A DNA stretch of 64,000 bases, taken from Asterochloris sp. CNOR1 (lineage: Eukaryota > Chlorophyta > Trebouxiophyceae > Trebouxiales > Trebouxiaceae). Position numbers and translations under genes: made by a program. Under the pieces are notes generated by a model. That model did no database searches, had not been told where the DNA came from, and saw only the letters and a program-made list of their open reading frames with translations. The stretch lies in the NCBI GenBank assembly GCA_963969365.1, contig OZ017752.1, positions 1,922,001-1,986,000 on the forward strand, given 5' to 3'. This document shows positions 1 to 45,500 of this stretch, piece by piece. Each line of letters opens with the position of its first letter. Position 1 is the first letter of the stretch.

Positions 1-3000
1 GCACTGATTCCAGCATGCAAGCAGCCTCTTCTCAAGCCAATTGAGGATCTGGCCCTTGAACATTGATTGCTGCAAGCAGAAGCTAGCGGCCATTGCAGCT
101 GTGTTGCTGTAAACAGTGCAAACCCTGCTTCAGATCAGGCGGTAGCTCACCTGCAGGTGTGCAGCCAGCAGAGAGGGGTGTGTGCACTCCTCCACAATGG
201 CCAGAGCGCTACAGGCCGCCTCCTGCACATGCTGGTTGCCATCCAGCACACGGACCAGCAGGCCCTGCAGGGGCAGGAGCAGAGTGTGGCCTGCTGCAAC
301 ACGACATGTTCATTAGTGGACGAGGGCAATCTGCATGCACGGAACCCTGTACAGCAAGAGGAGTGCCAGAGGCAAGGAGCGCTCTTCTGAGGGCCGACAC
401 TGCTGGCTTCTCAAAGGTGCTGCACTTGCAGTCGTGCCGCGTAAATGCTGGGTGTCAGCAGGCGTATTCAGGTTGGAGCATGCGCTCCACTGTTTTGAGG
501 TCAGCGAGAAAGCTCTCTAGCAGTCAGCCTGTCTCAGCCTGCCAACAACAGCATGCACAGGTTTGGCAAGCACTGGCGGCTGCAGCCCAACTCACTTGGA
601 TGACTGCCTCCAGCTGCTGCAGCCCCTGATCCATGTTCTGAGAGGGGTCCAGCGCCTGCTCAGCAATCCAGTGCCCGTACCGCGACAACGCCCAGCAGGT
701 GATGGACCTGCACGGGCCAGCCAAGGGAGTGAACACATGGACAGCTGCATGTCCTGCAGGCCTCCCCCCTGCCTCCCACCACCCTCTTTTGCCTGGTTGC
801 TCAAAGCTATGCGATCCCCATGACCTGGATTTTCATTGCAGCCTAGAGCATGCCGTGCACCATGTCTTTCCTGCTGCGCTGCATCCAGATCTTTGCTGCT
901 ATGTCAACACAGTACACAAGCCGATTTTGCGGACTTTGCAGGAGTGGATGCAGTGAGCGGCATGAGCGGCATGCATCTTCATGGTCAAGAACAGGCAGTA
1001 GGGTGAAGCAACCCCACCTGACCAGTGGGCGCGAGTCCTGCAGGTTGGGCATCAGCAGATTGACAAGCTGCGGGAGGAAGGGGACCAGTCCAGTTGCACA
1101 GCCTATCGAAATGGCTCCCAGCGCCAGGATTGCGGACTCCCGAGCGCGCCAGTCAGGTTCCTGCAGGCAGCATGCAGACGTTGGTCCCCAGCAGCCCTGT
1201 GCCCTCAGGAGCCTCCAAGCTGCAACACATGCCCTGCGCACAACACCGGCTTGACGCAGGTGCCCAGAGGGGCCAGTGCTGCTCCACCTGCCGGTGTGCT
1301 GTTGTGTTATAACCTGGAAGCTGGGGAGCCAAGTAGGCACTTGATAAGACTTGAGAAAGGGAATGGTGCAGAGCTCACCTGCAGGCGGTGCTGCACCATC
1401 TACAGGCAGCCTGGAGGTTGGGGAGCCCAGCAATCGCTGGACGTCCCGCAAGGACAGAACAAAGCCCACCTGCAGGCGCTGCTGCACCACAGGGACCACC
1501 AGCGCGAGCAGGGAGTCCCCAAAGACAGTGCTCAGCACGTCCAGCCCGGTCGCGCTGCAGCGCCGCAGGTTCCACGAGCGCACCCCCTCCCCGCCCGCAT
1601 CCTGGTAATCCTCCTCCCCTCGGGTTGCCTGCCTGCACACAGCAGGCACCAAGCAGTGTCGCAAGCTGATCAGCTTGTGAGGCGGGGTGTGGCTCAAGAT
1701 GCAGCCTGACCAGAAGCGCCCACCACGACATAGCTTGACTGAGACCTGACATGTGGAGCTGATTCACACGAGGTGTGCAGTACAGCATGCCGAGAACAGC
1801 TCACATGTATGTAGAGGCAGCGCAGACATCTAGCTGCACTTGCAGTGTGGACATGGTATGTTGGGTTGGCAAAGCTGAGGCTGAGCAGCAGGTCATCTCT
1901 CACTGGTGGTGGAAGGGTTTGAGGTGCTGGTCATCATTGCGAGCGCAGCCGTTACTGGCGGCTGGCTGCTCTGCTGCCTCTGCATCCAGCACCTGCAGCC
2001 ATATGCAGCCGCACGGTACTGGCAGGCCACATGTGTAGGGGGGCCATCTACCAATGCTCGACAGCTCAGAGACCAGGCCGCTGCAAAACTTGAGGCCTGG
2101 CAAACATGCCTTGAGACAAGCATCACGCATCTGCATGGACCCCTGAGGAACAGGGCACGGAAGATGCCTGCTGCTGTTGCAAGACTGGCAGCTTTGCTTA
2201 CTTCTGCAGATCCCCACCAGCAAAAGCTGCATGCAGCCCTGCCCAACACCACGCCACACTTGCAGGTGCTGTGGCCCCTTCATTCCACGGCAGAGACGCA
2301 ACAAACAGCAGTGGGCACCCCCCTGACCCACCTCCTCATCGTCCTCCTCATATACCATATTTTTGAGCAGCACGGGGATGAGCGTCTGCAGGTGGGGCTG
2401 CAGCAGCTCGGGGCTCAGTCGTGCCTCACAGAAGGCGCTCCAGAACTCACACGACTCCAGGGCCAGGTCAGGATCCCCATCCTGCAGGCACGCATCTGAC
2501 CTTTGCGACTGCAACATTATGAACACTGATTAAACTGCTTGAGAAACTAGACCAAGGCTCAGTTCAGAAGGCCGAGTCAGGGGCCCCTTCCTGCAGGGCC
2601 AGCACTTCTCAGTAGCAGCACAGCAGAAGCGCTGGCCGTCAGAGCTTGCAGGACTCAAAGCTGAGCGCCAGGTCAAGGACCCATCTTGCAGGGGCAGCAT
2701 TTGGCTGATTAAAGGTATAGGATCTTTCAGAAATGCAGAATTGCCCAAATCAAAAAGCCAGGTTGCTCCTCCCGCAGGAACTCCCCTTCAAGTGCAGCAG
2801 AACCTGTGGCTGCCGCAGCATGAATTTGCACGATGCAGAGTGCCATGTCAGGGTCTCCATCCTGGAGGGCACCATTGGTGACCTCAACATGGGCCTTTTG
2901 CTTAGCACAGCACTTACGTATCCTAGTATCAAGGCCCACTGCCTACTAATGTTTGTGTCAGAAAGCTGTACTATCCATCAGCATACGTGTTAGAGCAAGG

Positions 3001-5939
3001 CAGACGCCAGACGGTGCGGCGCCAGGGACTTCACAGTGCCACTGTCCTTACATGTGACCGAGGCGACAAGGGGTCTGCTCACCAGTTGAATGGTCTGATT
3101 GCAGATGGAAGGCCTCACCTGGGTGGCCTGCAGCATGTAGGTGATGAGGCTGGACATGTGGGGCATGAGGCAGGAGGGCTGCAGGTGCAGCATCTGCACC
3201 AGGCCCACGCACACAACCCGGCGCACATCCTTGCTGCCCTCCTCTGCAAGGGCGAAGAGCCCCTGCAGGTACCTGCAGCAAGGCATTCACTTGTGTCAGG
3301 GCTCAGACTTTACATGAGGGGCCTATCAGCATCCAGGATCAGCATGCTGCTCCAATTCAGTCAAATGCCCCTGAAGCTGGTGTACACAGCAGAGGCAGCC
3401 ACTGCTGCTGCGACACAATCGGTCTTGGATCAGCGCTGTAGGCTTGTCCACTTGGCTGCCCTGCAGTGTGACTCAAGGCATCACCGACAAGCAGTCCTCA
3501 AAAGTGGCAGACGGCAGTGCACAAGGCACTCAGAGGCCATTCATGGGGAGCCAGCCATTTCAAGCAAGCCCTTGATGTGAGGAGTGGGGCGGCACAGCAC
3601 TCACTGGTCCAGGAAGGCGCCAATGGCCTGAGACACGGCCTCGGCCAGCAGGTTGACAATGGTGACTGCCTGCACCCGCAGCCCCACCGAGGGTGCCTTG
3701 AACAGGCTCAGCAGGCGGGGCATGAAGACCTGCACAGGCTTCTCGGCCAGCCCTGGCACCTCAGCCTGAAGCTGGGCAGGGCAGTCCTCGCAGACCTGCA
3801 GGCAGGTTGGATGGTTGGGGTCCTCTTGGCACAACCTGAGACTGCTGTGGCCATCTGTCTGCAACTGGGTGGGGCAGCCCTTGCACAAGGACACTGATCA
3901 GTGGCTGCTCCCTCCACGACTCGAGACTGCTGTGGCACCTCAGCACGCCCAAAGGCGGACTCGTCCTGACAACAGCCTTGCCCAACAGGGCCATCACTTG
4001 AGGGCGGCCCACATTTCTGCAATGCCTGTGGGCGCTGCGGCCCTGCAGTAGAAACTGCTGCTTGACGCCCAGTCGTTCAGTGCACAGCAGTCGCCGTGGT
4101 AAACAGCTTATTTTTAGGACTGCCCCTCGCGGACTGGTCCGCCCCCTACAGCTGCTGGGCGGAGGCCGCACCACTCTCAGTGGCTGGCAGGACCAAGATT
4201 GTACCTGTCATCTCACGTGCCTTACCCAGCCTGGCAAAGCCGCAGCTGCAACAGATGCCATCACTCAGAAAACAGTGACTCGCGCCCAAGGCTTTGGCCA
4301 CGCCGCAGCGTGGCCTCTCAGCAGCCATGCGTGGGCTGTTTCTGCTTGGCTGCATCTCCCACCTTGTGAAGGGCGTCCAAAGCCCCCTCCAGCTGCAGGG
4401 CGTCCCCACCATCCAGGCTCTGCGCCAAGCGCTGCACCAGCTCTGGCCATGCTGCCAGCCCCGCAGCGGCGACGACTGCGGCCACGCAGGTGCCCACTGT
4501 CTGGCGCAGCTGCCGGGACTGCTCCCGCAGCGCATGGAGCAGGGCAGCCTGCACAGGGCAGGCAAGACGCTGCTGAAGAGGTGCTGGGCCCTTATAGAGG
4601 TACACGGAAGACCAGCTGCTCTGCTGCGCAGCACCTGGGGCTTCTGCAGCGTATGCAAGAGGGTGCCTTGCACGGCACGGCCAGGACGTTGGCTGGACAA
4701 TTATGGCACACACTGACTCCTGGGCTTGAGGCTCCAGCCACATGCTGGGGCCTGGTAGGTGGCGCAGCTGCGGATTGCACTCCTCAGCATTCAGGCCAAT
4801 GTGGCCAGGCAGCTGCAGTGCCACCTTTGTCGCCAGGCCACACCACTGCCCCCGTGTGCAGCACCTTGGGATCCAGGGCTGCAGCACGCCCAGCCTCTGT
4901 CCAGCCAGTTGGCCACCCTGGCTGGACCCTCGCTGCCCGGTGCGGGGGCAACGATGCTGACAACTAGGCGAGACAAGGATGACATAAAAGCGGTCTTGGC
5001 TAAGCCAACATGGGGCCTCTGCGACTGCGACAGCATCAAGGTGGCTGGCAGGGCACCACAGACAGCATGTTAAAGGGCCGCAGCCTCAAGTGTGATTCTG
5101 CTGCTGCTCTCTGCTGTGTCGATTCTCAGTGCAAGGCCCACCTTGATGTAGCTCTGGAGGTCAGCAGGCGTCCCTTGAAATTGGGTCTTGAGGTTGTTCT
5201 TCAGCAGAAGGCCAGCGGCTTGCCGTACCTGCTGCCAAGCCAGCATGTGTCTCAGCCTGTTGCAATGCAAAAGGCGGCAGCAGGCCCAGGTCTACCCAAT
5301 CTTGAGACGTGCATCAGGGCAGTACAGGCAGCTGCCTCCCAGAGAGGCAGGCTGCCTTTGTGCATTCTGAGGCGGGCAGATGCCTGTGCAACAGCGCCAG
5401 CAAAGGGTTGCTTGACACAGCAGGCTGCTGCGGCTCACCTCAACGAGAGTGTCTGTGCCTGTGCCCTGGGCAAGGATGAAGGCCAAGTAGTTGTTGAAGT
5501 CTGAGACCTGGCTGCATTGTTTCAAGGCGTCAATGATCTGCAGGGGCAGCAAGGGCAGCATACTACAGCTTTTGCTTGCCATCATGCCAGAAGATGACAG
5601 GCTGTGATGGTGCGATTGCTTGACCTTTGGATAGGGCACAGGCCTCAACAAGCAGCCATGGCTACAGCACTCATGGTGGCAGCTGGACATCAGGCCGTTA
5701 TTGGTGGAGCTAAAGGGGCGCCGCTGACTAGTACTGATGGTGCAGCCTTCAATAGGCCTGAGGTCAGTGTCTGCCTTGCAGATGATCAGGTGATTGCCAG
5801 GCGTGCATGCAGGTCCCTCAGACCAGGAGCAAGTGGTGATGGCACCAACCTGACTTTGGTCACTGCCAGGCTGCTGGCTCTGTGCCAAGAGCCCGCAAAT
5901 GTGAGTCACTCCAGTCTCCTCGGGGGACCAGGTGCCCAT
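1..5939 (-). CDS. TNPO1: Transportin-1 (karyopherin beta-2), 3' end off window
   Basis: This is a HEAT-repeat nuclear import receptor that carries PY-NLS cargo through the nuclear pore. Eleven consecutive exons keep frame: 5850-5939, 5439-5537, 5142-5228, 4363-4548, 3605-3795, 3119-3272, 2332-2481, 1470-1628, 1018-1160, 596-707 and 151-264. They give about 495 residues of a family that is usually near 890, so the C-terminal half lies beyond base 1. Diagnostic segments are the N-terminal WSPEETGVTHICGLL, DFNNYLAFIL, VRQAAGLLLKNNLK, the acidic-loop flank SWNLRRCSA, LALGAISIGC, CWALSRYGHWI and VQEAACSALA, all in transportin order. The start is the first ATG ahead of the conserved W-x-PEE segment. 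The intron before the exon at 2481 and the one after the exon at 1470 hold decayed copies of those exon edges. The exon in bases 1-150 was not resolved. The family is certain; individual splice sites are inferred from frame and alignment from memory. Confidence 0.92.
1250..1400 (-). repeat. Two decayed copies of a transportin exon end plus donor
   Basis: The real exon ends at 1470 with GTGCAGCAGCGCCTGCAG followed by GTGGGC. Similar strings ending CACCGCCTGCAG/GTGAGC (near 1379) and CACACCGGCAG/GTGGAGC (near 1285) follow downstream in the same intron. A following intronic motif (GGCTCCCCA, then CTCCAGG or TTCCAGG) is repeated as well. The duplicated unit is about 90-100 bp and spans the splice donor. 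Confidence 0.65.
2560..2861 (-). repeat. Three decayed copies of a transportin acceptor and exon start
   Basis: The real exon starts at 2481 with GATGGGGATCCTGACCTGGC after CTGCAG. Upstream in the same intron, related strings start near 2861 (CCAG/GATGGAGACCCTGACATGG), 2686 (CAAG/ATGGGTCCTTGACCTGG) and 2591 (CTGCAG/GAAGGGGCCCCTGACTC). Each then drifts out of frame. Transportin alignment requires the exon at 3119 to join the exon at 2481 directly, so these copies are not extra exons. Confidence 0.75.
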
Positions 5940-6460
5940 CACATCTGCTCAGTTGATGCCTGACATCTGCACCTCTCCAGCTCCGCCACAAATTCTTCTG
6001 GAATTTGGCTCTTGTGGTTGCCAGCTGGGCCTCAGGGCTCTGGCCGCATAAGATCGGCAAGCAGGCACGACCAAATTTGCAAATTTGGTTGACCACATGA
6101 AAAATCCTGCCTGCATGTACACTTTGCTTCCGGAGTGCATCCAGATCTTTGCCTGAGTGCATTGCTGTAGCAGCGACGACTTCATGCTGAAGCTGATTCC
6201 GAAAGCATAGCTGCCGTGTGCTGAATCTTCAATGCCCAGCATCACCAACATTGTGAGTCCCTCAGGCATTCGGTGCTGAGGCGACAGGACAGGAAGGTAG
6301 ATCAAGGGCAGACAGCAGCACATGCTGCCTGCAGGGAGGCTCCCTGACCTCAGCGCTTGCGTTGTCCCTGATTGCATGGGCTGTGCGTTTCATCAGGGGA
6401 CGGCGCGGCGCTAGGCTGCAGGGCAGCGCTAGTAGCTCTCAACTCACAGACCAGAAGCAG
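5940..6460. promoter_or_regulatory. Divergent intergenic region, transportin / rhodanese
   Basis: These 521 bp separate the ATG of the minus-strand transportin from the first usable ATG of the plus-strand rhodanese protein. The region must hold both promoters and 5' UTRs. I see no clear TATA box or conserved open frame. A frame open upstream of 6461 on the plus strand has no ATG, so the rhodanese start is not extended into it. Confidence 0.4.
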
Positions 6461-8301
6461 ATGGGCAAGTTCCATGCAGCCCTGTCGCCCGCAGCAGTCC
6501 ACATGCTGGTGCGCTTGCACTGCCCTGGGCAGCAGCTGAAATTCAAGTCAGGCCATGCAACAACATGGACAGCTTGATGTGCACGATTGTAAATTCTGCC
6601 CTGCACTGCTGCAGGTGGAAACGGATCCTATTCTGCACTATGTGATTGACATCCGCAGCAGCGAGCAGCGGTCAGGGCAGCCGCTGCCGCAGGACCTGCA
6701 GGACGCCCTCCACATCCCAGGTGTGACCCAAGTGCACCTCTTGTGATCCCCTGCTGCAGATGCTGCGGAAGGTGCATGCTCTGCTGGCGGCCGCTCCGCT
6801 CATGCAGGGCACCCTGTGTCAGCAGCATGCTCCAGGTCAGGTTAGCTTCTCAGAGTGTCAGGGCGCCCAGGGGTCTTCAAAGTGCCTTCATGGCAGCTGA
6901 GCTTGGCGCACAGCTAATTCCGATGTTGAGCAATGTGCTGTGTGCCACGCTGCACAGGGGTACTGACCATGCTGAAACCCAGACCCTGCCCTGCAGGGGA
7001 CAAGCTGCAGCAGGTCCTGTCCAGCAAGGCCGCCTGGAGCTCATATCTGAAGGCGCCCAGCGAAACGCCTGCAACAGATCCACAGCCATACCCCTCTCTG
7101 GAGCACCTGCTGGTCTTTGTGGGCAGCAGCGATGAGGAGATGCAAGCTGCGGCAGCCACAGCAGCGGACCTGGGCTTCAACAGGAGCATGGTGCTCAAGG
7201 GCGGGCTGGGTGCCTACAGCTCAGCTGCACGTAAGCAGGTGGGTTAGGTTGATACCCCATGAGATGCAGGCCTGCAGGCTCTTGGCTTTGAGGGTGCAGA
7301 TCTGCTGCTCGGCTGTTTGCGAGCAGGCAACGCTCCAATTAAGCGAGCAGGCTACAGGAAGGACTGGGGGTCTCCCAACATCTGGTTGCCTGCAAGCAGG
7401 TCGGTCTGGTCTCACACCTCATGAATCATGCAGGCGGCAGGGACAGCTTGTAGACGCAAGTCATTGACTGGGAAGCTCACATGTTGGCTACCCATCTGCT
7501 TGTCTGCCCAAAAGTGCAGATACTTGTCGCTGTATCTGCTGCTAGGCCAGCTGCACAGCTGACAGCAGCTACTTGCCTGCTGTAACTGCAGGCTGACCTG
7601 TGCTTCCTCAACCGGGATGCCCTGGCAGCCCTGCTGGGGCATGTGGACATCGACACGCCCGTCAAAGACATTGCCGTCATTGACCTGCGGCGCTCAGATG
7701 AGCGCTCACTGTATGGCAGCATCCCAGGCAACCCTGGCTGCATTGGTGCAATTGGTCTGCTGCTTGTTTATAAGGGCCTGCCTTTGGAGCTGCTTGATGC
7801 TTTCAAATCCTTCATGCTTTCATCTGCGCTGTTGCCTAGTCCCAGCACACATGCTTGGTCTTCAGTGAGGCCTGTGCAGGCCTGAAACACGAATGACCCA
7901 TGATGAAGGCAGAGCAAGGGCTTGACGCATTTTGGGTGCCGCCTGCAGGCACCTCTCATGTTCCAGCAGATCAGCTCCCAGCAGCCCTGAACATGAGCTC
8001 CGAGGAGTTTGAAGAGGCCTACAGCTTTCCGAAACCAGGCAGCAGTGACTGGTTGGTCATGCAGTGCCGTACAAACCGCCGATCGGCTTGGGCTGCCCAG
8101 GTGGCTAGCGATGCTGGGATGCAGCATTGCTTAGTATATCGGCAGGGAGCTTATGGCTGGCGACTGCATCCGGCTGTGAAGGCTTATAGCAGTTTTGAGC
8201 GCCATGATGTCCCACCTGAACCTGAAAATGTGCAGACAGAAGTGGCTGACGCAGCAGCCGCAAAAGCAGAGCTTTCTCGCCTTGGCCTCCTTATCACCTA
8301 G
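6461..8301 (+). CDS. Tandem rhodanese-domain protein with an apparent +1 frameshift
   Basis: Two rhodanese-like domains are visible. The first starts ALSPAAVHML/VETDPILHYVIDIRSSEQ. The second contains VIDLRRSDERSLYGSIPG, then HVPADQLPAAL, the active-site-like CRTNRRSAW and a VYRQGAYGW helix. In the second domain the Cys sits in a C-R-T-N-R-R loop, which fits a phosphate or sulfur-transfer pocket; the substrate is unknown. Exons are 6461-6508, 6615-6835, 6997-7238, 7592-7727 and 7949-8301, giving about 332 residues. The second exon keeps frame only if one base (T at 6744) is skipped at TTG-TGA-T; otherwise a 28-nt intron must be assumed. The intron after 7727 begins GC (CAG/GCAACC). A GT donor at 7746 would add six residues and fits the family less well. 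The start is the only ATG in frame; organelle targeting cannot be judged. Confidence 0.8.
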
Positions 8302-8398
8302 TGCAGCTGACGCATACTGAGTATAAATCGAGACAGTTGAGCTAGTTTATTGAATAGCAGGCATGCAGCCATGATGAACTCTGTCTGAGGCTGGATGA

Positions 8399-11300
8399 TT
8401 ACTGGCCTGCTGCTGCCTGTCCAGCAGCAGCAGCCATCTCTGCAATGCTCATGGTCACTGAGACATTGGGCTTGGCGCTGTCAGCATCTGAGCCAGACTG
8501 CTTCTGGGAAGCCTGGTCTTCCTGTCCTCCCCCCTTGCTGGATGCGCGGGCTCTCTTAGCAGTGGCTGGCTCTGGCAGGTCTGACCCTAGGCCTGTATCA
8601 TGCCATGGAGATGTCTTTGCACATCTGCCAGGCTGTGAAGCGTGATTCACTGTGCAGGAAACAAGCTGGAAGGGATGTCAGTCTCCCTGCAATGCAGCCA
8701 GCGCTCCCTTCACACATGCCCACCATATAACAGCTCACCTCTGCTGGGGATTGGCGTGACTTGCTTTTGGCTGCTGCTTTCCACCTCTGCCTGCATCACG
8801 ACGGGCGTAGGCCCATTGGTCCTGCTGCCAGGCTTGTGGGCAGCTCCTCCAACCTCAGCAGCACCAGCAGCAGCCCCACTTGCAGGATGCTGCTGCTGGT
8901 GCTGTGAGGGGGTGCCGTCAAATTTGGGTGGGGGAGGCACACTATGAAGGCTGGCACTAGGGTCACTCAGCTTCCCTCTGGCCCGTCTGGAAGTGCTAGT
9001 GCCAGCCTTGGTGGCATGCCCTGCCTGTGGGCTGCCACCGAATGGCGACTGATGGTGCCTGACGACTGCTGGCTGCCTGCCGACTGCTGACAGCCGCTGT
9101 GCCACCTGGCGTGGCAGATCTCCCTCACTCAGCGGAGCGCCCAGCTCCCCTGGCTGGAATGCCACCATGCTGCACCAGCACATGAAAGATCAAAATCAGG
9201 AAGACGACGTCGCCTGGCAGCAGGGCCCGCTTTTGGGGAACAGAGGCAGCTAGAAGACAGAGGCAGCCTGCATTCCCTGCACTGCGCTGCAGCAGTTGAA
9301 AGTGGTGAACAAGCCAGCAAATTGCTGCACCAAAAAGGCTGCACAGACAAGCAAGCTGTCCGGCAAAAGCAGAGGCGTGGGCCACCTCAGGGTGCCAGGC
9401 AGGACGCCTGAGGGTCCTGACCATTTGTGCAAGCCCTGGGCAAAATTCTAGACACAGCCCACCTGCAGTAGTTGTCCTGGGAGGAGATCGCCAGGAAAGC
9501 ACCATCTGGCGACCATGCCAGGTCCGTCAAGGGGGCATAGTGCAGCCTGCCGATGACAGCAATGGGCGCTATATTCTGCAGCAGCAGCAGCAGCCATTGC
9601 TGTAAGCCTCTCTGCCAGCAGCAGCTGCCTGCCCAGCCGAGTATGCATTGGTTGCATGCCACACATCCCCTTGCAGCTCAACACACAAGGGTGCTACAGA
9701 AGGGATGCAGGTGGTAGCACCGCCAGAAGTGCAGTCTGGCAGGGGCTTTGACCCTTGCAACTCAGCAGAAGGAAGCCAAGGGACATCAGCAGCCCACCTG
9801 CGTTTCATAAATCATGACGCTGTCCATAGTTGCAATTGCGAAGACCATGTTGTAGGGCAGCCTGATAGGGCTGGCGGGGGGTGTCTCCCTCTCCGCCCAT
9901 GCAGCTGCTGCAGGCTGCTGATGGGCTGGCGCCTCCTCCTGCGGGCTGGCCACCGCAAAGAGCACGGGGCAGAAACGCACTGCCACAATGGCCTGAAAGT
10001 GCATGCGTGAAGGGGTCAGTCACGCCTGTTGCGCCCACTTGCCGGTGGCAGGTTGCTCCAAGGGTGGCGCATTGTCTTGCAAAGCTGACCCACAGGGAGG
10101 GTGTGGGGCAGAACCGCTGTGGCGCAATGGCCTGTGATGGCATGCAGACATCAGAGCCTTCAACAAACTAAACACCACAACTAACATTGCCGGGAGCTGA
10201 GGTCGCCTTGCTCTGCTGATGTTCGGAGTCAGGAGGCGCCTGCCCCTGCATGTGGGGCGGTGGCTGGACACTGCACGCCCCCTGGTTGGCCGGGGCTGCT
10301 GCCTCTGCACAGGACCACTGTGCCGCTGAAAGTGCTGTGTACTCGCTACATGCAAGATCTCAGTTGCTGCTTCTTGCAGTTGTGGCGCCGCATCAACAAG
10401 CTTACAATACTGTGAGTGGTCCACCTTGTCAGGGGACGGCAGGTGCATGATGGGAGCTGCCCACTTGCCCCGCGCATACACCCACGCCGTGTCCACCGGG
10501 GCTGCTAGGGGGTCTTTCTTGAACTGTCCTGCAGCCATCACGGCCATGGCCCCATCTGGAGACCAGGCCAGCCGCCTGAAGAAGGCCCCTCCAATGCTCT
10601 CGTCATGGAACATGGCACATCGCTTGGCTGCTGGCGCTGCACCAGCACCCTCCTGGGTACCACCTGCACAAGTGCAGCAGTGCTTATCCTGCCGAGTCCC
10701 TCATCAGGGACCTTGAGCATGCGCTTATCTGTTCGCACAGGTGCTGCAGCAGCTCCCCCTCCCTCTCACAGGCACCACCTGCACATGGGGCATGGCAAAG
10801 ACTTTGGCTGCCCGTGCCGGTACCAGGTGCTGCAGCTTAGGACCAGTTGGGCATATGCAGCATTGGCTCCACAGATGCTGCAGCAGTGCCTTCATGTGGG
10901 CGCCCATATATGCAACGGCAGTTAGCCACATCGAATTGTGTTGTCAGCCCAAATGATGCAGCAGCACTGTCCAACACACAAGTGCATACAAGCAGGATCT
11001 TGCATGCTGAGAGTTCCCTTGTGAGGCAATGAGTCTGTGCAGGCGTGCAGCTGCATGCTTGCACAGTGGCCATAAACCTGCAACTGCGCCAGCCTCAGTC
11101 ACCAGCATGCTGCTCAATCCTCCCCCACAAATGCAGGTGCTGTGCTGCCAGCCTGTGAATGCTGCTTGATGTGATCCCTTGGCAGCTTGTTGCGATAGCA
11201 GAGCCTGACAACCAGGCTTGCAGGAGCGTCTGCAAAACATGCCAATGTGGACGCACAGGCAGCCTGCCCCGAAGCTGCGAGGAATCTGCACCAGGTGGTG

Positions 11301-13401
11301 GAGCAGCAGCCCCGCTACACAACTTGCTGATGGTAGCTTCCCTTGCTCTACATCAGATTCTGCCAGAGCAGCATATGCAAGTTGTTGTGGTGGGCAGCCC
11401 TTCACAACGATTCACCTGTTGGCAGCTTGCGCTTCTCCAGAACGTGAAGGCACGCAAATTTGGTGAGGCCCTCTTCACAGCTGCTGCTTGCAGGGGCGAC
11501 GGCTGCCTTCCTTTTGGCGCTGGCTGCTGGCGGCTTGGCCCCATATACCCTGCAGGGGGGCAGGCTTGACTGAGGGGGAGCCCTTGCTGCTGGCGTGGAC
11601 AAGCACTGGCAGGCCAACTTTTCTGTTTTGCAGCATTTCGCTGCACATCTGTACCGTGATGACTGGCTATAGGGCCACAGCAGGTATGAGCAGCCCAGCA
11701 AGCGTCCTGACAGCCATCCATGTGAGCACTTTCCAAGCAGTCAGGCTGAGAGCCGTACAATGCACCTGGCAGAGGCAGCAAATCAACAATGATTGCCTGC
11801 CCACCAACTTGGGTAAGCTCTGTTGCAGTCAGCTTAAGACACCACAGCCAATGCAGGACGCAAGTGACAGCCATGTCAGCGGTTGCCGATAGGAGTTTCC
11901 ATACAGGCCCCAGGTCCCATCGAGGCAGGCAGAGTGCAGAGCCACCCAACAGCCTTGTCTGACCTCGAGGATCAGATGCAATCTTGATCTCTAGTAGTGT
12001 GGTGCTGCAATCACCACTGCCTTGCTCTGCACAACAAGGCAGCACAGCTTGCAGGCGAGCCGCAGCAAATGCTGTGCAGAGATTCAATCCACCTGACAGT
12101 CTTGTCGGAGCCCGCGGACAGGACACACTCTAAAACTTGATGCCCATCAGGCCATGCCCAGGCAGACAGTGACGACAACCCCAACCCACCTGACAGTCTT
12201 GTCAGAGCTTGCTGACAGGATGTACTCCCGTGCAGGGTCCCAGGCCACGCCCTGGACCAGGTGCTTGTGCTGGTTCAGCCGGAACTTGGACTTCATGGCT
12301 GCCACGCTGAACAGGTTGCACTCGTTGTCGCTGGAGGCTGACACCAGGGCTGTGGAGTCTGGTGACCAGCTGAGGTCCCACACATCATCTGCATGACCCC
12401 TGCCGGGCAGGACAGCTGTGGTCAGGTGCCTTGAGCATTGGCAAGACATGTGACGCGAGAAGGACCAGCATCGCCTGCAGTAGCAGTGCAGGGGAGGCAG
12501 GGCAGCTGCTTTGTCTCACGATCTGTGTGGGGACAGAGTGAGCAACTCCGGCAAGGGCTGTTGAAAAAAATTCTCGAAGGTAAGGTACATGCATGATGGC
12601 CAGCTGAGAGCCCGGAAAGATCAAGGTGCTGTGTCTTGCTTGGGGCAGCATGGCTCAGCCCAGCACCGTGAGGGTGGCATTGCAGCTGTACTGAGACTTG
12701 CACCTGTGGCATCTCTGAGCCACCTTGAAGGTGCATGCAGGCAGAGGGAGCTCCCTGTGCTGCGAGAGGGGTGGAACACAGACAAGGCGCAGGCACCTCA
12801 GTATGCCAGCCTGCCTCCAGCCAGTGGTGCTGGAGCCCTGGCCCAGCTCTGCCTGCCGCCACAGAATCACCTCGCCACCGTCACCAGCTGAGGCCAGGAA
12901 TTCCCCTGCAGGGCGCTGGACAGGTTGGTCTGGCAGTGCGTGCAGTCAGCAAAGCCTTGCTGTACAACACGCGTCCCAGCACAAGACTTGCCTGACGGAG
13001 AGAAGCGGACACAATTGATTGCACGGCTGTGGCCGCTGACACCGCCAAGGCTTTCAATGTGCTTCACCACAGGGTCTCCACTGTGGTCAACGCCAACCTG
13101 CATGGGCACACATGGGCCGTCAGAGCTGGCAGGTATGCCTGCCTGGCAAGCTGGCGCACACACGCTCCACGCTCCAGGGCGCCAGCCTCACCTCCCACAA
13201 CTGCAATGCACAGCACTTGGTCAGTTTTGTAGTCAACTTCAGGTACATGTTGCAAAAGCTTGGGACGTGCTACGCTGTGCCAAGGCGCACCTTGATCTCT
13301 TTGTCACTTCCAGCTGAGGCCAGCAGGCCTGAGGAATGGAAGTCTACAGAAAACACTGGCTCCTTGCCGTTCCAAATAATCTGCAGAGTCTTCACCCTCA
13401 T
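8399..13401 (-). CDS. CHAF1B: Chromatin assembly factor 1 p60 subunit (FAS2/CHAF1B type)
   Basis: This is the WD40 subunit of CAF-1, which deposits histones H3-H4 on newly replicated DNA in the nucleus. The N-terminus [20 protein letters not shown] (exon 13291-13401) is the family signature. Further recognisable pieces in order are an LWE microexon (13192-13200), [16 protein letters not shown] (12992-13097), [16 protein letters not shown] (from 12905), [25 protein letters not shown] and SSDKTVR (12190-12420), [14 protein letters not shown] (about 11402-11550), [12 protein letters not shown] (about 10430-10664), [17 protein letters not shown] (from 9992), [15 protein letters not shown] and ISSQDNYC (about 9475-9580). 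A Gln/Ser/Pro-rich tail ends at TAA 8399. The intron after 12992 starts GC in a perfect AG/GCAAGT context. Introns near 12.1, 10.7 and 10.1 kb hold decayed exon-edge copies. The 3' end lies 97 bp from the convergent rhodanese stop. Confidence 0.93.
10070..10145 (-). repeat. Decayed copy of a CAF-1 p60 acceptor and exon start
   Basis: The real exon begins at 9992 with CAG/GCCATTGTGGCAGTGCG and then TTCTGCCCC. About 140 bp upstream, near 10132, the intron carries CAG/GCCATTGCGCCACAGCG and then TTCTGCCCC, with similarity continuing for about 50 bp. The copy does not keep the WD40 frame. Confidence 0.75.
10730..10800 (-). repeat. Decayed copy of a second CAF-1 p60 acceptor
   Basis: The real exon starts near 10664 with GTGCAG/GTGGTACCCAGG. 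A related string GTGCAG/GTGGTGCCTGTGAG followed by a G-rich segment lies about 115 bp upstream in the intron. Similarity fades after roughly 40 bp. Confidence 0.55.
11935..12135 (-). repeat. Two decayed copies of a CAF-1 p60 exon end plus donor
   Basis: The real exon ends at 12190 with GACAAGACTGTCAG/GTGGGTT. Downstream in the intron, GACAAGACTGTCAG/GTGGATT recurs near 12091 and a weaker GACAAGGCTGTTGG/GTGGCTC near 11947. Upstream exon sequence (CTGTCAGCAAGCTC versus CTGTCCGCGGGCTC) is duplicated too, so a natural decoy donor exists about 100 bp downstream. Confidence 0.75.
13192..13200 (-). other. Nine-nucleotide microexon (Leu-Trp-Glu) in CAF-1 p60
   Basis: The sequence TTGTGGGAG lies between CATTGCAG and GTGAGGCT on the minus strand. 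It joins in phase 0 between exon 1 (ending SDKEIK) and the exon starting VGVDHSGDP. This completes the WD-repeat ending KEIKLWEV. Longer acceptor choices upstream would insert residues into the last beta strand of the blade. Confidence 0.65.
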
Positions 13402-14584: not shown

Positions 14585-14622
14585 CCGTCTACAAGGAACC
14601 ACATTTTGCAACATTGTGATGA

Positions 14623-17600
14623 TCAAGTCCTCTGAAGCAGCTTGGCAAAGTTGGCTGGCAGTTTGGGGCGCCTGTCAGCCTGCAACATTGCCAAAACTGC
14701 GGCCCCATCGCCGGCCTCCAGGCGCCCACTCTGTGCCTGGGCCTGCAAAAGGCCGAGCAGGGTGCCTGCGGCCGGCTTGCTGCTGGGCCGCTGCAGGGGC
14801 GCACTGCTGGCTGCACCCTTAAAATGCCCAAGCAAGCCCTCAACCTCTGCAAATGAGGTGGGACCATCAGGCTCTGGGGCCACCTCATCCATATCCTGCA
14901 GTACACAGGCACAACTTGCATTCACAAAACGCTGCATACAGGAGCTGAACAGCATCAAAAGTAGGCCCGTGGCCAAGCAAAAGGCTCCCAGTTATGCGAT
15001 GCCTTACACAAATGCAACTGTTATGTCTGGGGCTGTGTCGCAGCAGGCCTCACCTGATCCTCACTGCCCTGCCTGCTGTGATCCCTGGCAAAGATGTATG
15101 ACTTGGCCCCAATCTGCGATGCATTTCTAGACAGGCTGGCCACAGGGTTGTTCCTGCCCCTGAAGGAACCCTGCAAGCGACATTCTGCCAGCTCAGCTTG
15201 AACTGCAGATGCGGCCTCTTCATGCATGCACATGCACAGCCAGCACGCAACAAGTCAGGGCACCCTCCTGTTGCTGCTCGCAGGAGGAAGGCAAAGCCCT
15301 CCATGTGTGCAAGCCACAGGGTTACATCACTGCTCACCACCCCAGATGTATCCCTGGCCGCAATGCCTGCCAGAGGGCCTCTCACACGATGTTCTGGCAG
15401 TGCTGATGCCTGCCGCATGCTGGCAGCCTCTGGCAGCACTTTGCTGCCCCCTCGCAGCAGGTTGAGGACGTCCTGTGAGTCCTCATCCAGCAGAATTGCT
15501 ACCCCAGCCACCACCTACAAACCAGAAGGCAGGCAGCTAAGCTGGCCTCCTGCTGAAGAGCTGCGCGTCCTGTTGCTGATGGGACACCAGGTGCTGCTGA
15601 GGCTGCGCCAGCACATAATTGTAGCACGCAGCAATTGCCTTGAAGGTGCCGGCCACTGAGGCCTCCATGTCGCACACGGCTGTGGATGGCACCTTGACGG
15701 ACCTCAACGTTGCGAAGTGGATTTTTCTTACAGCACAGAAAGATCTGTAAGTAGCTGGGATCCACCTCAGCAGCATTGGCAGGGCTTGTTGCTCAAGCAC
15801 AGCCGGCAGCAGCTGAGGTCATGCACGTCGCGCATGGCACCGGACAGCCCAGGGTGCACGGACCCACCTCAGCGGCACTGGCAGCCGCCCCTGCTGCCTG
15901 GGGTTTGCCTTCGTCATCAGACTCTGGCAGAGCCTCATCACTGCCCTCTCCTTCAGGAGCAGCCGGCAGCAGGGAGCGCAGCCCTGTTCGTGCATCGCCC
16001 TCATCGCTGTCAGAATCCCCATCCGAGTCATCCTGCCTCTGCCGCCGCCTACGGGCGTCCCCGTCTGTGCCCATCTGTAGCACGGCAGTGCGTCATTGCT
16101 ACGGTCATACAGCTGCCTGGGGGCTCACTGCAGGCAGATTCATGCGCATCGCTGGCTGTGCAAGTGGGCTGAGTGGCCATCAAGCTGCGTGCCTGGCATT
16201 TCGATGGCTGCAGCTGACTGCTGAAGCATGCAGGCTGGCGCTGCCAGCAATTACTGGATGGTGGAGTCAGCATGAGCATACCAGAGCATTTATAACTGGC
16301 ACATTAGGGCCTGTTCCTTGACCTGGGCAGGCCAGGAGGCTGCCGTGCACAGCAAAGAGCAGCTAGGAGGAGGCACCTAACGGGTGCATCACTTGGCAGC
16401 ACACAAGTGCAGTGCCAGCTGCTCAAGTCCTCCACGAGCAGGTCTGCAGTGTGCGGGCACAAAATGACAAGGCTTTGCCTTTCTGGGCATTGGCAATAAG
16501 ATTTCCGGGATCCTTGCCAAAAAAATCCCTCGGTGCTTGCATCAAGTTGACAGCTGAATGAGCTGCAGCTTCATGCCCTGGCGTGCAGAAGGCAGCACAA
16601 CCCGTTGCATCTCCATGCAGCAGATCCCCGTTGCTCGCAGAGGCCCAGACAGCACCGCTTTCCACCAGAAGCCTCGGTGCAAGAAGCACAGCATCTCAAC
16701 CCCTCACACTGGGGAATCCAGAGCATGTGCACCCTGGGTAATGCGTGGAACCTGCAACATTCATGCCGTGGCGTAAGGCAGCACAGCCCCCTGCATCCAC
16801 CAACAGGCCGTGAGGAGGGCCTCAGCATGGAAAGACAGCTCCTCACATCCTCATCCAGGAAGTCTCCCACGCGCTTGCGCCTGAAGCCACTGCGCACACC
16901 CTCCATCAGCTGTGCCACTGCGTCGTCGTCCTGCCTCTCCAGCCACTGCGCGTGCAGGTCTCGCCGGAGCACCTCGTCCTCGGCCTTGTCCCTCTCATGG
17001 CCAATCAGGCCCGCCTGCAGGCGCACAGGCAACCATGCATTTTGTTACAGGGGTGCTGTGAGCAGCAGGTGCGCTCATCTTGGGTCAAGCATGACTGCAT
17101 CCCCTGACTTAGCCCTCATGTGCCCAAAACGGCCTGCATGTAGGCACACAGCTGCCGGTCAGCCTGTTTGATGATTCCTCACAGGAGGTGCGCTTGTTTG
17201 AGCGGAGCAGGGCCACATCCTTTGCCTTTCCCCTGCTGTACCCAACCCTGCCCTTACAGGAGCTTGCCTGCTCAATTCTCAAAGCAAATCTGCTGGTCTT
17301 GCTGCAGGACTACTGACGCTGAGGACCTGTCTCTGTGGGCCAAAGAGGTCTGCGTGCAGAGGTCACATCCGCTTTCCTGTCCATGCCATGCTACAAAGCA
17401 TCTGTCAGTCATTGAGGTCATACTCCCTGCCAGCTCCCAGGCCACTGCAATGTCACTGCATGTGCTGGCCTGCCAGCATTCATTGCCGCTCTAGGCAACC
17501 ACAGCAGGCAAATCATGTGGAGTGGCAATGTCAAGGCTTGAGGCTGAGAGTCGCTGTCTGCAGCCACCAGATGTCTGTCCAACATGAATAAAACACACAG

Positions 17601-23701: not shown

Positions 23702-23716
23702 AAGATTCATCATGCA

Positions 23717-30767: not shown

Positions 30768-32737
30768 ATGGCTGTCTTCACCATAGGGAGTCTCTCAATC
30801 CGAGAGTCTGCACTGGTGAAGCTCATCACATTGTGTGCAGCTGACATTCATGCGTTGCATATTGCATGTGCTGACGATTGAGCTGCATGCAGGTTGGTGC
30901 GCTCATCATAGACTGCATCATTCAATTGGCAGGATGGCTGATCTCAGCAGCTCTGAAAACAGACAAGTTCTACGACATGCTCGGTAAACACCAGGCTGCC
31001 CAAACGCCTGCTTCAGTGCTCTTTGCTGGAGGCCAAGCAGCACAAGCACGTACTGCTGACTGCACAGCCAGATGGGATGCCCTGCATGAGAGCTGCAGGG
31101 CCTCGCTGATGCAGCCGGCAGCGCATACCCTGGCTGCAGGCAACACAGCCTTGCTTTGGCAGCCATCAACATGCTGACATACACGCACTACGGCGACCTG
31201 CTGCAGGCACCACAGGCATTGCTGTGGTAGTCACTGGCATGCAGATGTTGAATCACTGCATGCCCCAGAGCCCCAATGGCCCTCCCCAGTCATGCAGCAA
31301 CATCGCAGATATGCCTTGTACTGCAGGCAGCACAGCCTTTGCAGTGGTGGCCATCGGCACATTGACCTATGCCCACTACTACTATGCGCGCCAGATTATT
31401 GTGACAGTCATGGTCTTGCTGTGGGCCCTGCGCCTGGGTGGCTTCCTGGTGTTGCGCGTCATGAAGACTGGTGGGGACAGCCGCTTCAATGAGGTCAAGA
31501 ACAAACCATGTGAGTGCCTTTGCAAGCTTCACCCGCAAAGGCCCTCTTCTCAGTGTCAACAGTACATATGCAATCACTCATCCCTAGCACTTGCATGGCT
31601 GAGCTCTGCAGCCCAGCTCATTGCCTATGAGGTCCAAGCAACCTTGCTCCCGGTTGATCAGTGAAGCTCTGAGCACTCAGTGGCCAGGATGCCTGCAAAG
31701 CACAAAGTACAAAGTATAGAGGCCTGACCCGTGTCCTGTGCCCTGCAGTGAAGTACTTTGTCTACTGGTTTCTCCAAGCAGTGTGGGTGTGGGTGACCAC
31801 ACTGCCTGTTCAAACACTAAATGCCACTGCCAACAATCCAGGTGCGCGGCAACCATTTACGTTTGTCTGGTGCTGGAACTTCTGTACTGAGCACTGCTGT
31901 GCACGTCGTGGCACCTTATCAAGGCTGTTGATGTAGATGCACACTTGCTGGTGCACTTCCAGGAAGCTGCCCATTGCACAGTGCCGCTTGGCAGTGCTCA
32001 ACCTCAAAGCTTCTTGCGTCCTTGGCTGCAGGGCTGTGGGCCTCTGACATTGTTGGAGGTGTCATCTGGTGGGTGCTCAGAGATGAAGTTCGTCCGCACT
32101 GCCACCTTGTCTGCATGCTGAAGCTGACTGGTATTTGCTGGAAGTTGAAGAGGGCAGTGCTGCTGAGTGTGTGGCCACCAGAGACCACCTGTGTCGCTCC
32201 TCTGCATGCAGGATAACTGGCTTCCTGTGTGAGAGCACAGCAGACATCCAGAAGTTCAGATTCAAGCAGGACCCTGCCAATAAGGGCAAATTCATTACAG
32301 TTGGTGACACAGCTTCACATGATATCCGCCAGTCTGTCTGCTCCTCATCCTCTTGTCCCCATTCTCAGCAAGCTCTGCACGGTTGATGCAGGCCTCTGGA
32401 AGTGGAGCCGGCATCCCAACTACTTTGTGAGCCATGCTGTGCCCTGCAGTAAAGCATCGTGCAGCGCAGCCTCAGATCTGACAATGCTGAATCTGGCCCA
32501 GTCCATGTGCAGGGCGAGATGTCCATGTGGTGGGGCATCTGGCTGATGTCTATCTGCATCCTGGAGAAGGGGTACTGGCTGTCAGTCTTCAGCCCCCTCC
32601 TCACAATGGCCCTTCTGCTGTTTGTGAGCGGCATCCCCATCCAGGAGAAGCAGGCCAAGAAGCGCTGGGGGGATGACCCTGCCTATCAGAGATACCTGAG
32701 GCACTCAAATCTGTTGGTACCGCTCCCCCTCAAGTAA
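30768..32737 (+). CDS. DUF1295 / steroid 5-alpha-reductase-like membrane protein
   Basis: This is a polytopic membrane protein of the DUF1295 family, related to steroid 5-alpha reductases and isoprenylcysteine methyltransferases; its natural substrate is not known. Exons 30768-30815, 30893-30983, 31327-31509, 31749-31841, 32032-32068 (37 bp), 32212-32303, 32392-32426 (35 bp) and 32513-32737 join in frame to 267 residues. Family marks are YYYARQIIVTVMVLLWALR, LRLGGFLVLRVMKTGGDSRF, FLQAVWVWVTTLPV, ADIQKFRFKQDPANKGKF, LWKWSRHPNYFGEMSMWWG and LLFVSGIPIQEKQAKKRWG near the C-terminus. Trp-Ser-Arg-His-Pro-Asn-Tyr is the expected NADPH-binding-type signature. All seven acceptors are TGCAG. The third intron-exon border has two decayed copies upstream. 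The start is the first ATG, leading a plausible hydrophobic helix. Confidence 0.93.
31130..31265 (+). repeat. Two decayed copies of a DUF1295 acceptor and exon start
   Basis: The real exon starts at 31327, after CTGCAG, with GCAGCACAGCCTTTGCAGTG. Upstream in the same intron CTGCAG/GCAACACAGCCTTGC (near 31135) and CTGCAG/GCACCACAGGCATTGCTG (near 31201) recur. The first stays alignable for about 60 bp at roughly three-quarters identity, down to a shared CACTAC. Both run into stop codons when read in the exon's frame. Confidence 0.8.
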
Positions 32738-33030
32738 GCTGGTGTGTGAAGCTGCCGTTACATAAAAAGTACTGGAAACATCTCCATGCAGCGCAGCTGT
32801 GATTTGTGCTGCAGGTTCTGGGCAAAGGACCCTCCCGAGAGCGAGCAGAGGCTGGAGGCCAGGACGAGCAGTGACACCCACAGGGAGGGTGTTTGAAAGC
32901 AGCGCTGCCCATCCCTGCTGCAAGACACCCATTCATAGTGTTATTTCACCTAGCCCGCCTTTGATACCTGATAATGCATGTACATGTGACAACATGTTGT
33001 GAGAACACATCTCAACAAAAAGCTCAGTGT
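32738..33030. other. Convergent intergenic gap
   Basis: These 293 bp between two stop codons must contain both 3' UTRs. No TGTAA signal is clearly placed for either gene and no other feature is visible. Confidence 0.4.
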
Positions 33031-37120: not shown

Positions 37121-37259
37121 GGTGTTATTCGCCCCGGCGCGACGGTGGCTGTCAACCAGTCACCACCCCGTCAGGCCACATGCTCACTGGCGCAGCAGGG
37201 GATGACCAGGAGCGCTGAAAGGTGGAGTTTGACTGATCAATCTCGGCAAATTCTTGTTC
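37121..37259. promoter_or_regulatory. 139-bp bidirectional promoter, disordered protein / PIG-O
   Basis: The two ATGs diverge with 139 bp between them, so both genes must share promoter space. No TATA box is evident. Confidence 0.55.
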
Positions 37260-42430: not shown

Positions 42431-42567
42431 GTTGCAGAGCAGACTTTAGGACCAAACCATCTGCCCACAGTGTTGTAGCCACCTCCAACTAGGGCCAGCT
42501 GCTGTGACTTGAGCTTGAAACACAACGTAGTGCACTCCAAGTTGACATAAGAATGCCGCCAGATGGC

Positions 42568-45500
42568 TCAGTCAGATAGCGAACTGATCAAAGCAACACC
42601 ACTCAAAGTCCAATGGCTTGCAGGCTCAATGGTTGGCAAACGCACAAACATCACAAAGTTTGTGGAGTGTCCTGTCGTGGCTAGGACACCTCTGCGCTCT
42701 GCAGTTCTATACACTGGGCAGTTGTAGTGTGGGTACTGTGACATTTTGTCAACTCGTTTTGGACGCAACCACATACATGGCGCTGGAGTGAAAAGAACCT
42801 GCACAAAGAGTGGTACTGACTCAAGAGGAGCAGCAGAGACGTGTGGTGCTGTGGGATGGCATCAGTTCCATTGAGCATATGACGCAACAAGCAATACAGG
42901 CAGGTTGCGCAGCTGTACCTTTGGCTGTGACTCTGCCAGCACACGTTTCAGCGGGTCCCATCTACAGCCCTCAAGGTACAGCCCATGGATGTACACTCCT
43001 TCCTCAGCTGGGGTTGTGTACCTACAGCCATGTACTGAAAATACAGCAATCCGGTGAGGGACTGCGGCCATGCCTTGGCCAGCTGGGGCCAGGCACGCTG
43101 AGTCATTCAACAACATGACCCAGCTTGTGAGGCAGATGGGAGACGGCTGCAAGAACTGCATGCGCTGCAGCTGCTGGCATCAGACACTGCGTCACAGGCT
43201 GTTCAAGCGGCATTGCTGAACCCTTGCAATGCGGCAGGCTCTGGCTGTGCAGCAGCATCCTGGCTTCAAAAGCCAGGTTGCACGTTGTGGCCTGCTGCAC
43301 GCTGCCTCTGTGCTGGCTGCCACTGGCTGCAAGGCGGCACACCTGGCAGGCTCCATCCCCAGCATCTCATAATCGTACTCAACCATGTCGATGGGGATGG
43401 CGTGCTTGCGCGCAAAATTCTGGAGCCCAGCAGTAAGGAAGGACTGCACAAAGAAGAAGCCAGACAGCCAGAAGATGGAGGGAGCGCCGTTCTCGTACCA
43501 GCTCTGCAGCCCCACAGCTCCTGGTCAGGAGCTGTCGCAGATTGACTGCCAAAGGGCGCTAACATGTGCTGAGGAAGCCATGCTGGAGAAAGCAGGGTTG
43601 GACCCTAGAATCAGCACCGCAGGATGAGATGGCTGCTTTCTGCAAAGGGCGATACCTGTATGGAGCCCAAACACTAGATTGAGCAGGCAGGCACACTGCC
43701 ACAAGACATGGCAGTCCACAGCATTATGCCAGGCTGAGGCAGAACTTTGATGTGTTCCCACATCTACCTGCAGCATGTGCAGTCGATTGTACAGGTCTTC
43801 CAGGTAGGAGGCCAGCGGCTTGAGAGATGGGTAGGACACCTTGGCCCACAGGTCAGGCACCCGCGCCACGCTGATGCTGCGGTAGGCTGCCTCAAGCTCA
43901 GCGCTCATGACCACTAGGCCCTGCAACAGGGGCACACACTGCAGTCAGCAGGGCACAGCAGCAAAGGCAGCCCCAGGTTGCTGCCAACAGTGCCAAGCAG
44001 TCTGGGGTAGCCAGAGAAGCAGATTGCCACAAGGCCACCAGGCCCTGCAGCAGGAGCGGGTGCTGCCTCTGTTCAGCAATCTCACACAGTCCACGGCATT
44101 GCAGACAGCAGCAGGGGCCACGCACACCTTGCTGTCAGCAAAGCCCTACAAGGGTGGACCAGTCATGCCAGCACAAGTGCGATGGCTGGGCAGGCAGCCA
44201 GCATGCCGCTGCACCCTTGTGCTGCAAAGGTAACTGTGAAGCTCTCTGTAGACAGACACCACCCAACGAGCATATGCAGGGGCATCTCTTGCAAGGGCAA
44301 GGCAGAAGCCAAGCCGCTCATTCCCATGGCAGCCCATGAGTTGGAGCGTGACCAACCTGCAGCGCAAGGCTGATGTTTTTGAGGGAGTCCCGGATGACGC
44401 TGAGCAGCTTGTTGAAGCGGCTCATTTCCTGGGCCAGCATGGTGTTCATGCTGTCTTCATACTTGACCGGGTACTTGCGCTGCACCACCTCTATGTCAAA
44501 GTTGGGTGGAAGCTTGGCCAGGCACTGCGCCAAAATGCCTGCAGAGCACACCCTGTGCGTTTGCCGCATCCAGGTGGGCCCAGCAGAGTCATGTCTAGAT
44601 CTTGGCAGATCTGCCAAAGTGTGCACACACAGGCCATGCCTGGCAGTTCTGAAGAACCAATCAACATCTTGCACCTGGCAACAAGTGTACATTGCCAGGT
44701 GGTGCCCTGTCCGGAATGCGGCATGCGCAGCGGGGTGAACTGTCGACATGTGGCAGCGGGCAGGGATGCCGCCCACCAGCAATGTGCAGCTCGCTGGCAC
44801 CACCCCCCTTGCCCCCACTGCTGCCGCTCACGCTCAGCAGGGAGCTGAACATGAGGGCTGTGTCGTTCTGGTCTTTAGCAATGTCTGCGTTCTCATGCAG
44901 CCCAAAGGCCTCTGGCGCAGGATTGATGGGAAGGCCGTCTATGTACTTGAGGTAGGTTTCGTAGGGCCCTGCAAGGCAGACCAGCGTGCCAGAGGTCAGG
45001 CTTCACGTCACCATGCTCACCGGGGTTTTCCAACAAGGTGCATGCCGCACAGCATGCCTCTGTAGCCCAAGAGCCCCTGTGGCAGGCAACCAAGGACCTG
45101 CATCTGGGCATGGCACCAGGCATGGTGAGGGCGTCGCAGGTCCATATCCTCCCCAAAACAGTGAGGTGGGCAAGGGCCTGAGCTTGACTTTCAATCTGCT
45201 GCGCCACGCAGTGAAGCTTCTGCAGGTTGGCCAGGCAATCGTGAAATCTCTGTTCACATGCAGGTGAGGCGCCCACCTGGGTCCGGCGGGTAGTACAGCC
45301 CTGAAGGTGACAGCTTGTGTCGTTCCTCTGCCACCATGGCTGGGTTGTAGCACTGCTCCAGGATGGTGTTGAGCAGAATGCGGTCCTTATCATCTGTCAC
45401 ACGCCCGCCGTAGTTGCATTCCCCAGTCACATAGCGCAGCGCATTGAAGGGGATCTGCAGAGCAGTGGGTGGGACTATGTAGGGTGTGCTAGACTCTGCC

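Follow-up and report, generated by a model that had tools for sequence, protein, structure and literature searches.

Introns of the green alga Asterochloris sp. CNOR1 hold decayed copies of their own splice junctions, probably as a result of frequent local tandem duplication

Duplication inside genes, as studied by Gao and Lynch in 2009, reportedly often crosses exon–intron boundaries. The present study concerns a 64-kb stretch of the genome of the trebouxiophycean green alga Asterochloris sp. CNOR1 (NCBI GenBank assembly GCA_963969365.1, contig OZ017752.1; C7:1922001-1986000), hereafter called the window, and the decayed copies of splice junctions that lie inside its introns. The genome comprises 56.38 Mb in 21 contigs, and the G+C content is 58.6%. 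Short direct repeats in this DNA are arranged head to tail in numbers far above chance, and the partners of repeat arms that cover a junction are mostly intronic. How does an intron come to contain worn copies of the junction that bounds it? We consider it likely that local head-to-tail duplication is frequent, that its units are mostly 30-150 bp long and fall without clear preference for junctions, and that selection keeps the splice site on the exon side.

Several described systems share features with this pattern. Tandem duplication inside genes, including duplication across exon–intron boundaries, is assigned a role in intron gain in two papers (PMC4974935 and PMC3443670), which cite Gao and Lynch 2009 for internal gene duplications that span such boundaries. 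As in those internal duplications, local duplication inside genes of the alga leads to extra splice sites. The outcome differs, in that the alga retains an existing intron with a decayed copy and gives no clear sign of new introns. In the potato RdRp case (PMC4974935), a tandem duplicate likewise crosses an intron–exon boundary, whereas the donor–acceptor register that defines that case shows no clear excess in the alga.

Small tandem duplications are a common class of short insertion, and in mouse and human cells they arise when staggered breaks are filled in and the ends are then joined (PMC8355091). The algal repeats resemble these insertions (<100 bp in that paper) in their head-to-tail arrangement and order of size. 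However, the mechanism is demonstrated in the mouse and human cells, whereas the algal repeats are mostly old and diverged products known from sequence alone. Decayed local duplicates are also pervasive in fly regulatory DNA, where, as in the alga, they are detected by short-range similarity (PMC3188502). The fly duplicates extend over a range of up to ~70 bp with ~7-bp motifs, whereas the algal units are longer and lie in introns and across junctions. In a literature search, no title or opening of an abstract pointed to a report of the pattern in a green alga, which is not proof of absence. In the alga, a type of process already described elsewhere occurs densely and ends differently, in a longer intron; its density was compared with that of E. 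coli K-12.

Direct repeats were detected by near-diagonal local alignment at offsets of 15-600 bp, both in the window and in a 314-kb sample that combines the window with 250 kb of the same genome (C1:1.00-1.20 Mb and C2:2.00-2.05 Mb). The near-diagonal aligner was used instead of self-BLAST of the window, which gave 9 repeats, and the signal in plain autocorrelation is too weak for reading alone. The window contains 41 alignments that score at least 95. Two block-wise dinucleotide shuffles yield 5 and 4 such alignments, and each of four displaced controls yields 0-5. The 314-kb sample contains 216 matches that score at least 90, compared with a mean of 35.6 across five displaced controls, and the tandem duplication signal is present in all three sampled regions. 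The same test yields 30-45 matches per 50 kb in the alga and 2 per 50 kb in E. coli K-12. The repeats are arranged head to tail, given that adjacent 250-bp segments match directly in 75/1250 cases and in inverted orientation in 9/1250, the latter being the rate of random partners (9/1250). Chance similarity from shared composition and from splice-site words such as CTGCAG would supply ~16% of the matches that score at least 90 (35.6/216), and individual matches below that score may be due to chance. As an account of the bulk, it is refuted by the swapped, shuffled, displaced and inverted controls, which all lie far lower, and we give it hardly any credence.

The repeats are heterogeneous in size and divergence. 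In 112/216 matches, the arm length is at least 0.6 of the offset, and such adjacent copies are termed clearly tandem below; the other 104 fall under this ratio, perhaps because of decay, separation or chance. Unit lengths are broadly distributed without a sharp peak, and 69 of 75 clearly tandem units measure 20-160 bp. The identity of matches that score at least 100 ranges from 0.60 to 0.84 between the 5th and the 90th percentile, with a median of 0.70. The repeats do not have the character of minisatellites in the window, where Tandem Repeats Finder reports 9 rows, all of them outside the listed junction arrays and with at most 2.5 copies.

Introner elements are dispersed families that add intronic sequence in many genes. 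The algal repeats also add intronic sequence across many genes, but each of four arrays used as a query against the genome (56.4 Mb, with very common words skipped) matches a single locus, its own. A dispersed element is thereby ruled out for these four arrays, for which confinement was checked, in agreement with an earlier note on this stretch that had distinguished the copies from introners and other dispersed elements.

Gene models were obtained with a gene finder self-trained on the 314 kb from DNA only, which predicted 104 genes and 700 introns with a median intron length of 176 bp. The donor consensus is near CAG/GTGAGC, and the acceptors, taken from an earlier version of the gene finder, are near CTGCAG/G. 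Junction counts exclude exons shorter than 24 nt. Predicted genes were also filtered by coding length, with those below 200 nt excluded from the list of junction copies in the window, those below 240 nt from the displaced-control pair counts (53 versus 9) and one random-placement comparison (32 versus 15.6), and those below 300 nt from the swapped-intron test, the analysis of 60 copies, the location classes and the simulation, all of which are described below.

A junction copy that scores at least 85 is found in 14 introns of seven predicted genes in the window, two of the seven models being parts of the dynein region. The weakest of these copies may be chance matches, since at score 80 the window contains 80 matches anywhere, compared with 26.2 in displaced controls. 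The swapped-intron test covers 395/650 introns, those long enough for separate segments. When a 120-bp donor segment is aligned with the rest of its own intron, 26/395 introns (6.6%) reach a score of at least 90, compared with 0.1% for swapped introns and none for shuffled introns. Acceptor segments of the same length behave alike (20/395, 5.1%; swapped 0.2%, shuffled 0). Among exon tests, the terminal 60 bp of upstream exons reach a score of at least 80 against the intron in 24/250 cases, and the initial 60 bp of downstream exons do so in 7/248 (swapped 0.2% each). For interior exon segments that lie 120-180 bp away from the junction, the figures at this score are 1/75 and 0/84 (swapped 1.1% and 0.5%), and none of these 159 segments reaches score 90. 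The matches are thus concentrated at the margins of exons and disappear by 120 bp inside them. Empty exon interiors are expected, since a copy can be spliced out only when its unit overlaps the intron. Across the 314 kb, a junction arm has its partner in an intron in 53 cases (control 6.8), compared with 9 cases in which the partner is exonic (control 4.4); the arms are not oriented in this count. The earlier note had claimed that introns hold degraded copies of their own splice junction, and these results confirm the claim; rates equal to those of swapped introns, shuffled introns or exon interiors, which it had named as contrary evidence, did not occur (26/395 and 20/395 at junctions, 0/159 in interiors).

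We propose that many short head-to-tail duplications accumulate in the nuclear genome without an evident bias toward splice junctions. A unit that straddles a junction would provide the gene with two splice sites, and the exon-side site would have to win, as the protein would otherwise be broken. Because only individuals that use the exon-side site would retain an intact protein, the surviving second copy would lie on the intron side and would decay there through substitutions and small insertions or deletions. Introns would thus lengthen and come to hold fading, mostly frame-broken copies of their junctions. The duplication step may be slippage during replication, or else staggered breaks may be filled in with errors and then closed by end joining. 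An origin at the DNA level is suggested by the continuity of the copies through exon and intron, for which spliced RNA cannot be the template. The process named in the earlier note, local tandem duplication, is retained, given its presence in every sampled region and the greater length of introns with repeats.

Is the junction itself the duplicated unit, as the earlier note had concluded? The location of the matches does not support this part of the claim. Among the 216 matches, 40 pairs are internal to introns (shuffle control 4.0), 29 join a donor (0.5) and 19 join an acceptor (1.8), with a further 12 intergenic (2.2) and 31 exon–exon pairs (9.5); a class termed 'other', 65/216 matches and 30/112 of the clearly tandem ones, was counted and left out of the model comparison, which rests on 56/112. 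The position of the junction within the aligned unit is uniform (Kolmogorov–Smirnov p 0.57 for donors and 0.54 for acceptors). Furthermore, a location-blind simulation, in which units of observed length are placed at random and decay neutrally with slower change in exons, predicts visible donor, acceptor and intron-internal pairs at about 0.57-0.60 : 0.57 : 1, and the clearly tandem pairs are observed at 17 : 13 : 26. Junction-spanning pairs constitute 30/56, compared with 53.5% under the blind model (p = 1.0), and an expectation without correction for visibility is likewise not rejected (p = 0.14). Given the uniform junction position and the agreement with the blind model, targeting of junctions is not needed.

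Junction-targeted duplication would hold instead that breaks are provoked by structures that splicing or transcription forms at the borders of exons, chiefly at donors, so that the junction is copied preferentially. We regard it as unlikely, although several observations favor it and weigh against duplication without junction preference. Donor–intron pairs exceed random placement on the present annotation 2-3-fold (32 versus 15.6 ± 4.0, with 20 versus 7.3 ± 2.5 at scores of at least 110; 29 versus 11.8). This excess is inflated, because exon-anchored pairs stay detectable for longer, with simulated detection of 0.31-0.36 compared with 0.21-0.22 for intron-internal pairs. Exon-edge copies are also more frequent after donors than before acceptors in the exon tests above (24/250 versus 7/248, Fisher p 0.0025), a difference not expected from a blind model that assumes equal tolerance, whereas whole donor and acceptor segments are alike (26 versus 20 of 395, p 0.45). 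One possible reason for the donor bias of exon-edge copies is that a second AG upstream does more harm than a second GT downstream.

Other points against our interpretation concern the model and its materials. Intergenic pairs are fewer than expected, with 9 versus ~16 under the model (p 0.16) and 12 versus 29.4 under random placement. The unit lengths in the simulation derive from the detected matches themselves, and the simulated pairs have a median identity of 0.77-0.82 compared with the observed 0.70 at score 100, which indicates that ages or decay are poorly matched and that the agreement in ratios needs care. The comparison depends on just 17, 13 and 26 pairs, with 30 of the 112 clearly tandem matches in the unused class. 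The exon–exon class probably mixes protein repeats, chance matches and annotation errors, given that its offsets are multiples of three in 13/31 pairs. In addition, the gene models are self-trained from DNA, and repeat copies can mislead the gene finder, as in two 21-nt exons called on copies; every duplication is read from one genome. Junction targeting of a modest degree is compatible with the data. A bolder reading, which we find improbable, is that duplications crossing a junction are purged no more than intron-internal ones, so that the spliceosome must pick the exon-side site nearly always, even between identical sites ~100 bp apart, and that donor edges may be mild duplication hot spots through which splicing feeds intron growth.

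The state of the copies bears on whether they have a function. In 60 oriented junction pairs from the 314 kb, a frameshift or an in-register stop interrupts the exon part of 44 copies; the earlier note had described the copies as out of frame or stop-containing. The exon part (identity 0.74) and the intron part (0.73-0.75) have diverged equally. The splice dinucleotides of the copies, which the earlier note had regarded as decoy sites, decay about as fast as the rest of the copy, with GT retained in 19/32 donor copies and AG in 12/28 acceptor copies, as expected without selection; no selection for or against them was detected.

These results argue against functional tandem exon duplication, in which the copies would be alternative or mutually exclusive exons or selected backup splice sites. 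Some copies do retain donor or acceptor motifs, and the gene finder accepted two as exons. However, the arms span a median of 34-40 bp of the junction-side exon rather than whole exons, and the identity is almost flat across codon positions (0.72, 0.77-0.78 and 0.71-0.72), so we consider a functional role very improbable. A conveyor belt, in which older copies would lie farther from the junction, was rejected, as distance and identity show no significant correlation (Spearman -0.16 and -0.14). The graded divergence described in the earlier note is therefore weakly supported, since identity varies widely without declining away from the junction. An apparent shortage of donor copies with offsets divisible by three (4/32) was rejected, because measurement at the junction gives 6/31 and the effect could stem from the gene finder. 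Separately, 21/40 intron-internal pairs have offsets divisible by three, more than one third, which could be due to chance or to misannotated exons.

An arm scoring at least 95 overlaps 121/650 introns, chance matches not being subtracted, and these arms cover 9.7% of intron bases. The median length is 257 bp for introns with a repeat arm and 171 bp for introns without one, a difference that is not proof of growth by itself because a longer intron offers more room for a match. Do the repeats also generate new introns? In the model of intron gain through tandem duplication of exon segments (the AGGT model), the introns themselves would be the duplicated segment. The potato intron created by a junction-crossing duplication (PMC4974935) and 188 events listed under this heading in the review PMC3443670 speak for such a route. 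The model requires donor and acceptor flanks to align in register one intron length apart, and across 650 introns such alignments number 1 versus 0.2 expected at score 80 and 3 versus 1.0 at score 70, slightly exceeding the control at low scores (5 versus 1.4 at score 65). Ungapped in-register identity of at least 0.5 occurs in 0/603 introns (0.3 expected) and of at least 0.45 in 10 (4.4 expected). New introns made from repeats thus show no clear excess and amount to at most a handful, and we hold it highly improbable that the AGGT model explains the repeats.

The junction copies of the window lie in genes of several kinds, on the minus strand unless stated otherwise. Domain searches identified CAF-1 p60 (PF24105, E 3.6e-71), DUF1295 (E 4.6e-68), importin/HEAT and dynein. 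Together with protein alignments, they uphold the names transportin, CAF-1 p60, DUF1295 and dynein from the earlier note; its 'Claspin-like' label is unconfirmed, as two predicted proteins of that region match no Pfam family.

In the transportin-like gene, the end and donor of exon 1470-1632 (1460-1489) recur in the intron at 1369-1398 with 90% identity over 30 nt (repeat D11), within a longer alignment of 1313-1505 to 1410-1581 (score 174). The gene finder placed a spurious 21-nt exon (1379-1399) on this copy, and the 14-intron count therefore misses the 1470 donor. Without that exon, the protein aligns gaplessly with Transportin-1 (2h4m) across the 1470 donor. The 2481 acceptor and exon start (2461-2488) have copies at 2570-2597 and 2841-2868, each with 82% identity over 28 nt, and a weaker copy between 2655 and 2725. 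Further pairs in this gene involve acceptors 3795 (3754-3851, copy 3848-3936, score 106), 4548 (4500-4572, copy 4620-4691, score 108) and 1992 (1962-2039, copy 2185-2266, score 86, 66% identity), the last being near chance level.

In the CAF-1 p60 gene, the exon end and donor 12190 (12182-12255), supported by the domain match and repeat alignments, have three copies, namely 12085-12162 (score 153), 11929-11984 (score 95, matched to the first copy) and 11858-11914 (score 106 against the exon arm). Two acceptors of the gene are also duplicated, 9992 (9860-10006, copy 9991-10145, score 180, 66% identity) and 10663 (10608-10752, copy 10715-10886, score 92). In the DUF1295 gene on the plus strand, the acceptor near 31,327 and the exon start (31321-31359) have copies at 31201-31239 (79% over 39 nt) and 31134-31191 (75% over 59 columns against 31321-31379). 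This acceptor was assigned by eye from its CTGCAG site and is absent from the 14-intron count, having been misplaced by the gene model.

In the dynein gene, donor 48321 (48304-48407) is paired with a copy at 48205-48312 (score 182), and 235/235 residues from four exons align across this donor without a gap to the dynein of entry 8glv. We take 8glv to be from Chlamydomonas. Homology supports the predicted use of the exon-side site in two cases, the 1470 and 48,321 donors. The remaining dynein pairs are acceptor 48998 (48977-49037, copy 49039-49096, score 98), acceptor 43920 in the dynein region (43846-43933, copy 43971-44057, score 108) and donor 58802 (58735-58818, copy 58602-58687, score 88), which is near chance level.

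The 14-intron count also misses three repeats of the region labeled Claspin-like, one of them just inside an exon edge. In predicted gene 8 of this region, an arm at 17782-17906 with exon end 17836 is copied at 17642-17767 (score 128), and an exon arm at 20645-20709, 17 bp inside the end of exon 20628-20850, is copied at 20344-20403 (score 118). Predicted exon 16847-17014, from a short and unsupported gene model, has an acceptor arm at 16977-17134 with a copy at 17100-17252 (score 172). Of the two 21-nt exons called on copies, the second (20347-20367) lies on the copy at 20344-20403, and the first is contradicted by the Transportin-1 alignment; similar spurious exons may be present wherever this genome is annotated automatically.

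Three other predicted genes carry donor copies, namely gene 1 (plus strand, donor 7238, 7193-7278, copy 7351-7441, score 119), gene 9 (donor 22599, 22541-22610, copy 22490-22559, score 93) and gene 11 (plus strand, donor 25739, 25715-25789, adjacent copy 25789-25864, score 135, offset 74). In a predicted intron of gene 9 (22027-22197), three short tandem arrays with 20-23-bp units are clustered, and one of them is a perfect two-copy repeat and thus probably recent. Multi-copy junction arrays also occur on contig C1 at L014:4199-4506, L013:2562-2837 and L014:2023-2820; the first is a long pair with 77% identity and a unit of 116 bp, a candidate for tests of splice-site choice. Less diverged pairs on this contig include C1:1124199-1124506 and C1:1133369-1133495.

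These repeats constitute a countable record, legible from sequence only, of how introns may lengthen without transposons, with 121/650 introns overlapping a repeat arm before subtraction of chance matches. Each of the 60 junction pairs in 314 kb offers a natural two-site test of how splice sites are chosen, and many more pairs are to be expected in the whole genome. They are also a warning for annotation, as gene finders can call spurious exons on junction copies. The apparent targeting at junctions is the result to be expected from blind duplication combined with the requirement that the protein still works.

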